This document shows, one piece after another, positions 52,811 to 63,489 of a stretch of DNA of 64,000 bases; the first letter of the stretch is position 1; each line of letters begins with the position of its first letter. Below the pieces are notes generated by a model. It searched no databases and was not told the origin of the DNA. It saw only the letters and a program-made list of their open reading frames with translations. Source of the DNA: Desulfocapsaceae bacterium (GTDB lineage: Bacteria > Desulfobacterota > Desulfobulbia > Desulfobulbales > Desulfocapsaceae); contig JAQVER010000005.1 in NCBI GenBank assembly GCA_028697885.1, positions 1 through 64,000 on the forward strand, in the 5' to 3' direction. The position numbers and the translations under genes were made by a program.

Positions 52811-54556
52811 ATGAACGAAGCAACATTTATAAAAGGAAAAGATGCCGCCTTGGAATCATCTATTGAAACCATGCAGCAACAACTTGTTGATTTAGGCTTC
52901 GATATTGAAGAAGTCTCCTGGTTAAACCCGATACCAAACGTTTACTCTGTGCATATCCGCGATAAAGAATGTGGACTCATGTATACCAATGGGAAAGGTA
53001 CCACGGAAAAATCTTGTCTGGCGAGTGCGCTGGGTGAATATTTTGAACGTTTAAGCTGCAATTATTTTTTTGCTGATTTCTACCTTGGCGAAGACTTTGC
53101 ACAAGGTGAATTTGTTCATTATCCAGATGAACGCTGGTTTCAGAGCGATAATAATGAGATTCCGACGGCGTTGCTCGATGAAAACCTCTGGCATTACTAT
53201 GACCCGGAAAACGAATTCAGTGCCTCAACCATATTTGACACCAACTCAGGAGAAGGTGAACGTGGTGTCTGCGCTTGCCCTTATCAACGCCAACGTGATA
53301 ATGAAACGATCTGGTTTCCGGTCAACATTATCGACAATCTGTATGTGAGCAACGGGATGTCTGCGGGCAATACCGCCTATGAGGCTCGCGTTCAAAGCCT
53401 GTCAGAAGTGTTTGAGCGTTTCATTAAAAATAAAATAATTAGCCAAGGCATCTGTCTTCCTGAAGTACCCGACAAGGTCCTTGCCCGCTTTCCCAAAATA
53501 ACAGAATCTCTGAATAACCTGCGGCAACATGGCTATCAGCTTCGCATTGCTGATGCGTCATTAGGTGGGCGTTACCCTGTGATGAGCGTCACGCTCATTA
53601 ATCCCGTCAACGCAACTGTATTTGCTTCCTTCGGGGCGCATCCAAGTTTTGAAGTGGCCTTGGAGCGAACTGTCACGGAATTGTTACAGGGGAGGGGGCT
53701 CAATCAACTCGATGCTTTTCAGTCTCCCAGTTTTGATCTCGATGAAGTTGCCGACCATCATAATCTGGAGACACACTTTATAGATTCCAGCGGTGTAATG
53801 GCATTCGACTTTTTTAAAAATAAAGCTGATTATGAATTTTATGATTGGAATTTTGACGCAAACAACGAAGATGAATTCAGTTTTTTATGTGAGCTGATTC
53901 ATGAGATGGGCTTTGATATCTATATCTCAGATTTTACCCATCTCAATGTTTATGCCTGCCGAATCATTGTCCCCGGTATGTCCGATATATACCCTATTGA
54001 CGATTTGATCTGGAATAACAAAAATGAAGGAGCCTTGTTTCGAAAAGAAATTCTTTCCTTGAAAAATCTTGAGCATGCCCAATGGCAGGCTCTTTTTGAT
54101 CGTCTAGATCAGGGCGGATACAACGATTTTCAAGGTGTTGCTGAATTTATCGGGGTTGCCCCTGATCCCAACACTACCTGGGCCTCTTTACGTATTGGCG
54201 AGTTAAAAGCCATGTTATGCCTTGCACTTAAAAACAGCGAAGCCATCGACTGGGTGGACTGGTGCCTGCATACTGACCAGCTTGATGACAAGGCCACCCT
54301 CTATTATCAATGCTTGCGGGTTCTGCTGGAAATGAAAAACGATGCAACAAGGCAACTTGCTGACTATGTCGACAGCTTTCAGCTTATGTATGGTGAAAAT
54401 ACCCTGCAAACCTGCAGGGATATTATCGAAGCAAAAGAACTCTTTTACGGTTTGCACAGTCCGGGCTTGAGTCTTGAGGGTTTTAATGCACATAAAAAAC
54501 TCCTATCCGGCTATCAAAAACTCCACCTTGCCAAATTGAAAAACTGGAAACAATAA
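52811..54556 (+). CDS. ycaO: YcaO-domain protein, E. coli YcaO type
   Basis: A 581-aa ATP-dependent YcaO protein very close in layout to E. coli YcaO (586 aa), reported to support RimO-dependent methylthiolation of ribosomal protein S12. Motifs: EVSWLNPIPNVYSVHIRDKEC, NGKGTTEKSCLASALGEYFERL, SNGMSAGNTAYEARVQSLSEVFERF, ERTVTELLQGRGLNQLD and ACRIIVPGMSDIYP; a C-terminal TPR-like part follows from about 400. It stands alone between two tRNA-Arg genes with its own terminator, and its codon use (more AT at third positions than flanking genes) and strong gammaproteobacterial likeness suggest transfer. Confidence 0.94.
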   Translation: MNEATFIKGKDAALESSIETMQQQLVDLGFDIEEVSWLNPIPNVYSVHIRDKECGLMYTNGKGTTEKSCLASALGEYFERLSCNYFFADFYLGEDFAQGEFVHYPDERWFQSDNNEIPTALLDENLWHYYDPENEFSASTIFDTNSGEGERGVCACPYQRQRDNETIWFPVNIIDNLYVSNGMSAGNTAYEARVQSLSEVFERFIKNKIISQGICLPEVPDKVLARFPKITESLNNLRQHGYQLRIADASLGGRYPVMSVTLINPVNATVFASFGAHPSFEVALERTVTELLQGRGLNQLDAFQSPSFDLDEVADHHNLETHFIDSSGVMAFDFFKNKADYEFYDWNFDANNEDEFSFLCELIHEMGFDIYISDFTHLNVYACRIIVPGMSDIYPIDDLIWNNKNEGALFRKEILSLKNLEHAQWQALFDRLDQGGYNDFQGVAEFIGVAPDPNTTWASLRIGELKAMLCLALKNSEAIDWVDWCLHTDQLDDKATLYYQCLRVLLEMKNDATRQLADYVDSFQLMYGENTLQTCRDIIEAKELFYGLHSPGLSLEGFNAHKKLLSGYQKLHLAKLKNWKQ

Positions 54557-57783: not shown

Positions 57784-58057
57784 AAGATCTTTTTTGAATT
57801 GAATCCGGTAAGGGCGGCTGAAAAAATTTTACAAAAAAATGACTATACCATGTCTCTCTGAAAAATACAGTACGACATGGAGTGGTTTGAGATAATTGCT
57901 TGTGGTGCCGCCATATCTTGATGCTGCAAATGAGTTAAGACCAGTTTAAAGGTTGTCTGTCTTGCTTGTGTCGATTAAATTGCTTTACATCCTTTTGGGA
58001 TATATTGTTGCCGCTTTATGAATCAAAGTCGAAAAGATTATTATTGAGAGGATAGCT

Positions 58058-58273
58058 ATGAAGATCATAATTGAATATTGTACAAAGTGAAACTATCAAC
58101 CTCGTGCTTCCAGGTTGGAAGAGGAATTGAAGAATATGTCGGGTGTTGAGGTGGAGTTGGTTCCCTCAACAGGTGGGGTTTTTGAGGTTACTGTTGATGG
58201 GAAGAAGGTGTTTTCCAAGAAGGAAATGAAACGTTTTCCTGAAGAGGGAGAAATCGCAGGTTTGCTGGGATAA
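58058..58273 (+). CDS. SelW/Rdx-family selenoprotein (in-frame TGA at 58088-58090 as selenocysteine)
   Basis: A 71-residue protein if the TGA is read as Sec11: MKIIIEYCTKU, then NYQPRASRLEEELKN, a middle segment with STGGVFEVTVDGKKVFSKKE and RFPEEGEIAGLLG to TAA. The C8-x-x-U11 redox motif followed by YxPRA, and the GGVFEV and F-S-K/RFPE elements, are the hallmarks of the thioredoxin-like Rdx (SelW/SelT/SelH) family. GAGAGG lies 6 nt before the ATG. A stem-loop sits right after the TGA. Conventional ORF calling splits and misses this gene. The exact role is unknown; family members are thiol or selenol oxidoreductases. Convergent with the DtxR-type gene 18 nt away. Confidence 0.93.
58097..58117 (+). 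promoter_or_regulatory. Putative bacterial SECIS stem-loop
   Basis: CAACCT (58097-58102) and AGGTTG (58112-58117) are exact reverse complements (a T-G pair can extend the stem) around the 9-nt loop CGTGCTTCC, starting 6 nt after the TGA. The loop carries the G-U that bacterial SelB-binding hairpins usually show, at about the usual distance from UGA. Confidence 0.7.
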
Positions 58274-58291: not shown

Positions 58292-58804
58292 TTAATGAGC
58301 TTCTTTTGTCGTTCCCTGAAGAAGACAGCTTGAAACACAGGCGTCACAGTTGCTTCGTGTCTTGCCCCGTTTGCAGTAGTCCGCAAAGCCTTGGAGAAGT
58401 TCGTTGCCGCCGCGAGGGCAGATCTTTAAAAATTCGATGAAGGAGATCATGTGGGAAATTACCTCCGGCGGGGCGGCATGCTCCACTCTGCAGGCACCTT
58501 CTTCTGCCACACTGCGTTCCACAGCTAGAACTTCAATGAAGAATTGTTTCAGGGCATCGTGGCGGAAGATGACATTTTCTGCAGCTTTTTCCCCTTTTGT
58601 GGTCATCGTAATGGCTTCATAGGGGGCATAATTGATAAGTTCCCTTTTGGAGAGCGCCCGCAGTGCTTCTGTGACCGATGCTCGACTGACCTGCAGTCGG
58701 GTAGCTATCTCTTTACTTCTGGCCACATCTTTTTCTTGAATGATATGGTAAATTGCCTCCAAATAATCTTCGAGGCTGGCGCTGAGGCTGTTTTTTTTGG
58801 GCAT
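58292..58804 (-). CDS. DtxR/MntR-family metal-dependent regulator with Cys-rich tail
   Basis: A 170-aa regulator: N-terminal winged helix (SLEDYLEAIYHIIQEKDVARSKEIATRLQVSRASVTEALRAL) and the dimerisation/metal domain with H/E ligands (HDALKQFFIEVL, EEGACRVEHAAPPEVISHMISFIEF). From about residue 128 the tail holds six cysteines (CPRGG..., YCKRGKTRSNCDACVSSCL), unlike classical DtxR or MntR, and may form a cluster or zinc site. It could regulate iron or manganese genes such as mntP 3 kb away; that link is inference. Confidence 0.87.
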   Translation of the reverse strand: MPKKNSLSASLEDYLEAIYHIIQEKDVARSKEIATRLQVSRASVTEALRALSKRELINYAPYEAITMTTKGEKAAENVIFRHDALKQFFIEVLAVERSVAEEGACRVEHAAPPEVISHMISFIEFLKICPRGGNELLQGFADYCKRGKTRSNCDACVSSCLLQGTTKEAH

Positions 58805-62583: not shown

Positions 62584-63489
62584 GTGAAAAAACAGGTATT
62601 GATTTTTTGGGTGCTTTTTTTAAGCCTTTTCTGTCAGGTGCTTTATGCTGCTGAGCAACCAGCTGAATCATCAAGTTTGTTGCCGGATGTTCCTCAGATT
62701 ATTGGTGGTTATGATGCGCCTGTGGCCTATCCATGGATGACAGCCATCTTATATTCCAGTGTCTCTGATCTCTATCAGGCTCAGTATTGTGGCGGTGCCT
62801 TGATTGCTCCCAACTGGGTCCTGACTGCCGGTCATTGTACTGATGGGAAGTTGCCCAGTGCCATTCAGGTGGCGGTTGGTGTCTATGACCTGAGCAACTG
62901 GAACGGAACAAGGATTAATGTAAAAAGGATTGTCAGGCATCCTGCGTATTCGTATTCCCTTTTACAAAATGATCTTGCTCTACTTGAACTCAGCTCGGCC
63001 TCAGCCCAACAACCCCTCACCATATTCTCCGGTGCTTCCGTACAGAATATTGACCCGAAGCTCCTGAATCAGCTAAGCACCCTGATTGGCTGGGGAGTTT
63101 ATGCTCTGCCGGCATCGTATCCCTCGACGTTGCAGCAGATTAATCTGCCGGTTGTTGCCGATTATTATTGTAATAGCACGTATGGGGTCACCCTGTTAAG
63201 CTCGCAACTCTGTGCCGGGTATGCGGCGGCAGCGAGTAAGGATGCCTGCAGCGGCGATAGTGGCAGCCCTCTGATGCTTTTGGTAGATGGGGAGTGGGTG
63301 CATGTGGGGCTTGTCTCCTATGGTGCCGATTGCGCGACGTCAAATGGCAATTATGGGGTTTATACCCGTAGCTCGGCATATGTGAGTTTTATCAAGCAGT
63401 ATGTGCCGACCGCCAAGTTTACGACAGGAGCAGCAGCAACTCCCAAGGCTCTGCCCTGGCTCATGCTCTTGCTGCATAAAGAGCGATGA
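62584..63489 (+). CDS. Secreted trypsin-like serine protease (S1)
   Basis: A 301-aa protein with a signal peptide (KKQVLIFWVLFLSLFCQVLYA). The S1 domain begins at IIGGYDAPVAYPWM (residue about 38); the triad is H in VLTAGHCT, D in LLQNDLALLELS and S in CSGDSGSP. D in KDACSGDSG at the base of the S1 pocket suggests cleavage after Arg or Lys. The C-terminus ends PWLMLLLHKER, a very short hydrophobic-basic end that looks like a cut-down sorting signal. GTG 62584 is used after GGGAGG. The 237 nt upstream are non-coding. Confidence 0.92.
   Translation: MKKQVLIFWVLFLSLFCQVLYAAEQPAESSSLLPDVPQIIGGYDAPVAYPWMTAILYSSVSDLYQAQYCGGALIAPNWVLTAGHCTDGKLPSAIQVAVGVYDLSNWNGTRINVKRIVRHPAYSYSLLQNDLALLELSSASAQQPLTIFSGASVQNIDPKLLNQLSTLIGWGVYALPASYPSTLQQINLPVVADYYCNSTYGVTLLSSQLCAGYAAAASKDACSGDSGSPLMLLVDGEWVHVGLVSYGADCATSNGNYGVYTRSSAYVSFIKQYVPTAKFTTGAAATPKALPWLMLLLHKER

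Follow-up and report, generated by a model that had tools for sequence, protein, structure and literature searches.

The window, the whole 64,000-nucleotide stretch analyzed here, carries a small selW-like gene on the plus strand, facing a regulator gene on the minus strand. The features of the locus, each with the evidence on which it was assigned, are as follows.

58046–58052, plus strand: Shine-Dalgarno-like GAGAGGA with a 5-nt spacer to the ATG at 58058 (read from sequence).
58058–58273, plus strand: selW-like gene of 71 codons with predicted Sec at codon 11 and a TAA stop (sequence, profiles, predicted fold).
58088–58090, plus strand: UGA codon, predicted selenocysteine of the CxxU motif (TGA in relatives, Cys in distant homologues).
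58107–58121, plus strand: putative bSECIS hairpin with a 6-bp stem (58107–58112 with 58116–58121) and a GGU loop at 58113–58115 (comparative pairing, covariation).
58292–58804, minus strand: DtxR/MntR-type metal-dependent repressor, convergent neighbor (Pfam Fe_dep_repress and Fe_dep_repr_C).

The frame at 58058–58273 is interrupted once, by the TGA at codon 11, and the TAA at 58271–58273 stands as codon 72. The read-through translation is MKIIIEYCTKUNYQPRASRLEEELKNMSGVEVELVPSTGGVFEVTVDGKKVFSKKEMKRFPEEGEIAGLLG. An earlier, sequence-only reading of this DNA had described an ATG with a Shine-Dalgarno and a frame broken by the TGA alone, which agrees with the sequence at 58046–58273, and all of the motifs it listed (CxxU, YxPRA, GGVFEV, FSK, and RFPE) were found in the translation. 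It had also stated that standard gene callers miss the gene, in line with a mechanical ORF list from which the gene is absent.

In the Pfam search, the read-through protein matched PF10262 (Rdx) with E = 6.8e-22 and 77.9 bits against a cut-off of 22.6. The NCBIfam search gave NF041051 with 103.6 bits (cut-off 88) and TIGR02174 with 66.1 bits (cut-off 34.2), so that the translation falls in the Rdx/SelW families with which a comparison had been proposed. A PDB sequence search likewise placed it in Rdx/SelW. NF041051, SelTWH_Campy '(seleno)protein', was matched over its full length and above its equivalog cut-off; the profile is named after Campylobacterota, whereas the host here is of the Desulfobulbales type. 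An AlphaFold model obtained with 31 locus-derived sequences as input had a mean pLDDT of 87, and its best Foldseek matches were SelW-family crystal structures with TM values of 0.84–0.92 by query. In the model, strand E2-8 and helix H14-28 flank the CxxC/CxxU motif, which thus lies between the first strand and the first helix of a thioredoxin-like fold. C8 and C/U11 were invariant in the 31 sequences.

The structures 2FA8 (Agrobacterium), 2OBK (Pseudomonas fluorescens), and 3DEX (Streptomyces) showed the same fold (TM 0.84–0.91 by query, 35–43% identity) and share the position of the CxxC/U motif and the GG[VL]FE motif with the SelW-like protein. They differ in being longer and in having Cys where the selW-like gene has UGA. 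Mouse SelW (2NPB) is also a longer protein of the Rdx family with a thioredoxin-like fold, with a TM of 0.68 and 30% identity; its SECIS is of the eukaryotic kind and lies in the 3′ UTR. SelW-like selenoproteins have long been known, including from the same order, to which we take Desulfotalea to belong, and the gene at 58058–58273 is an ordinary new example. Those of Desulfotalea psychrophila and Geobacter sulfurreducens were tabulated in 2006 (PMC1794560); these likewise have CxxU and come from Sec-decoding deltaproteobacteria, and they differ in species and sequence. A 2026 review lists CxxU for PF10262 (PMC13188914).

A scan of named genomes yielded 49 relatives, and TGA stood at codon 11 in 10/10 of the closest homologues. 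The relatives most like the window gene, MAGs of Desulfobulbaceae and Desulfocapsa that stem from separate projects, had TGA at codon 11 without exception, and distant homologues from Agrobacterium, Nocardiopsis, Aquimarina, and others had a Cys codon at this position. Homologues lacking both Cys and Sec there had been named as evidence that would speak against a selenoprotein; the homologues had one or the other. Across the same order, 153 of 194 genomes had a SelW match, with one in-frame TGA in nearly all of the matches listed. Comparison of codons 12–70 of the window gene with its 10 closest homologues gave dN/dS values of 0.09–0.14, which indicates that the stretch past the TGA is translated and selected. 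Judged from these substitution rates, purifying selection acts on the codons downstream of the TGA, and on the same comparative grounds the in-frame UGA is taken as functional and not as a defect.

The hairpin downstream was analyzed by aligning 36 distinct sequences from the UGA. RNAalifold returned one helix, columns 20–25 with 29–34, with the loop GGU in the window sequence. Standard pairs were present in 216/216 cells over the 36 sequences, and both sides had changed in 22 cells. The covariation score of 0.399 exceeded those of 500/500 shuffles (mean 0.194), which leave the kinship of the sequences in, and all slid versions reached at most 0.116. One covarying pair links two third-codon positions (GCU with GAA, GCC with GAG) and is therefore unexplained by protein constraint alone. 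Published bSECIS limits are a stem of 4–16 bp, a loop of 3–9 nt with G in the first two loop positions, a UGA-to-loop distance of 16–37 nt, and a minimum free energy of −7.5 kcal/mol or lower (PMC13188914). The hairpin starts 16 nt past the UGA and falls within these limits, with 6 bp, 3 nt, GG, a UGA-to-loop distance of 22 nt, and −7.8 to −8.8 kcal/mol, the energies being those of 33- and 43-nt folds (−7.8 over 33 nt), with −6.2 for the bare 6-bp hairpin. Single-sequence folding of the region was unremarkable against shuffles (z −0.2 to −1.7). As such folds are ordinary and the shuffles ignore kinship, it is the full comparison that makes the case for a SECIS, and on that basis we assign 58107–58121 as a predicted bacterial SECIS. 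This covarying element had not been part of the sequence-only reading and is independent support for the selenoprotein.

The source genome (3.88 Mb, 174 contigs) was searched for the selenocysteine machinery, which had been predicted as selA, selB, selC, and selD. Complete genes were found for selA (630 bits), for selD (376 bits, with an in-frame TGA of its own in ...KAAGUAAKL...), and for tRNA-Sec with anticodon UCA. selB was present as a fragment from about model position 221 onward, comprising the C-terminal two thirds; it lacks some 220 N-terminal residues because contig C142 ends there. In two genomes of the same genus, G056 and G108, selB was full-length. Absence of selA, selB, or selC, which would have counted against the prediction, was thus not what the genome showed. 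G056, the closest relative, has selA, selB, and UGA-SelW, but it yielded only a UCA tRNA between hdrA and mvhD and no canonical tRNA-Sec that passed the Rfam cut-off. An assembly gap may account for this, or the first look may have been too limited.

In the order-wide search, selA was not found in 13 genomes with SelW-UGA, among them one assembled into a single contig and one into two, and 11 of these 13 still gave no match with the source genome's own SelA as query. SepSecS gave no match above the cut-off in the relatives without selA, and one match below it. In G179 and G133, selA adjoins the rRNA operon, and blocks of N of 5000 or 2500 bases lie near rRNA (L175, L176). In many of the assemblies searched, selA stands no more than about 500 bases from where its contig starts; its place beside the rRNA operon means that it is easily lost where contigs end. 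In the single-contig G049, the usual downstream neighbor of selA adjoins a 5000-base N block flanking rRNA, and in G108 a contig starts within the gene that usually follows selA. Loss of selA was considered for these two genomes and rejected, since its place coincides with the masked block in G049 and with the contig break in G108, and the absences are masking or assembly gaps. The same artefact is the likely cause in G041 and the remaining genomes without selA. Matches above the cut-offs for both selB and tRNA-Sec were present in G041, G049, G108, G149, G164, G024, and G074.

The identification as a CxxU SelW/Rdx selenoprotein is thus borne out by profiles, TGA conservation, machinery genes, and the covarying hairpin. 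We are highly confident that this is a functional selW-like gene whose UGA at codon 11 is read as Sec through SelA, SelD, SelB, and the hairpin, with a probable CxxU thiol/selenol oxidoreductase as its product. In this mechanism, SelA would convert Ser-tRNA(Sec) to Sec-tRNA(Sec) with selenophosphate supplied by SelD. SelB would bring Sec-tRNA(Sec) to the ribosome and bind the mRNA hairpin beyond the UGA, so that codon 11 would be read as Sec and not as a stop. The product would be a 71-residue thioredoxin-like protein with Cys8 and Sec11 in the loop that joins the first strand to the first helix. From what is known of the family, this pair most likely makes and breaks a selenenylsulfide bond, which suggests a small thiol/selenol oxidoreductase; Sec insertion and redox activity are both inferred from the analysis.

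A different decoding of the same UGA, wholly or partly as Cys, could come from the second UCA tRNA, a U73, selC*-like tRNA-Cys between hdrA and mvhD. Its gene is present in the source genome and in several congeners, with a CUUCAAA anticodon loop identical to that of tRNA-Sec, and its long variable arm shows a compensated change. A SelC* tRNA-Cys of related type has been published for deltaproteobacteria (review PMC7609411), and Cys is the natural substitute at the Sec position in SelW homologues. However, the second tRNA was found in only some members of the genus, whereas UGA-SelW is order-wide. A selC*-type reading would expect a U73 UCA tRNA wherever SelW has UGA, and the two did not go together in this way: G012, G041, and G049 had UGA-SelW, and none of their above-cut-off matches was the second tRNA. 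The hairpin, kept by selection, also speaks for Sec, and no second selB* was detected, the single selB found being incomplete. We therefore consider decoding as Cys very unlikely. A mixed arrangement, in which the genus decodes the SelW UGA with two competing tRNAs (tRNA-Sec with SelB and the SECIS against the tRNA-Cys-like hdrA–mvhD tRNA), is a little less improbable and still a long shot; if true, SelW would be made with Sec or with Cys, depending on the supply of selenium.

A decaying pseudogene, in which a Cys codon of an Rdx gene has mutated to a stop that is not read through, has in its favor the in-frame stop that is formally present. It is contradicted by the shared TGA of the closest homologues, the low dN/dS downstream, and the conserved hairpin and neighbor order, and its probability is negligible. 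Least probable of all is a sequencing or assembly error turning a TGC or TGT Cys codon into TGA: the source genome is a draft in 174 contigs, but relatives assembled independently, in different projects, have the same TGA.

Returning to the reading of UGA as Sec, the gene confirms the use of selenocysteine by the source genome and adds a small gene left out by a standard ORF scan, and a clean, covarying SelW SECIS spanning the order comes out of the comparative set. Of greater value are the bacterial SelW with two Sec codons and the possible second UGA-reading tRNA. SelW genes with TGA at both codons 8 and 11 (UxxU) were seen at G063:C31:19706-19912 (minus strand), in family f4 of the same order, and at L040:1267-1476, in a MAG labeled Planctomycetota. 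The G063 protein aligns gap-free, and a hairpin in the usual position would sit about 31 nt past the first UGA of the gene. Bacterial SELENOW-like proteins are listed as CxxU with one Sec (2026 review, PMC13188914), and UxxU SELENOW has been reported from amphioxus and Ostreococcus (PMC7539508).

The second UCA tRNA of the source genome, with U73 and an encoded CCA, lies at L010:1501-1599 on the minus strand (G000:C82:16686-16784), and ARAGORN does not call it. Hand pairing gave a 7-bp acceptor, a 5-bp T stem, and a 6-bp tRNA-Sec-like D stem; its 7/5 shape differs from the 8/4 of selC* tRNA-Cys (PMC7609411). Similar tRNAs between hdrA and mvhD were seen in several congeners (L129, L132, L133, L134, L135, L138, L139), and the tRNA looks degenerate in G108, G137, and one of two G023 copies. 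At the source genome locus, no UGA interrupted the adjacent hdrA or mvhD frames. A second CysRS-like match (G000:C62:14221-15606, L074; 383 bits) lies in a 795-aa open frame, possibly an extended or fused CysRS, and an ordinary 503-aa CysRS is encoded on C48.

The selW-like gene stands alone on its strand, with a minus-strand dGTPase-like gene on one side and the minus-strand DtxR/MntR-type repressor and then recN on the other. In every same-genus locus, and in most of the other loci of the order examined, selW has the DtxR–recN neighborhood beside it; this is context only and names no firm functional partner for the SelW-like protein. Promoter and terminator scans at the locus gave nothing informative, and a phage origin was set aside, as phage records gave no match. 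Elsewhere in the window, a complete YcaO protein with a YcaO_C domain is encoded at 52811–54556, which we take from family knowledge to be the partner of a RimO-type methylthiotransferase. A secreted-looking trypsin-family serine protease with a GTG start lies at 62584–63489 and looks unusual for a sulfur-cycle bacterium.
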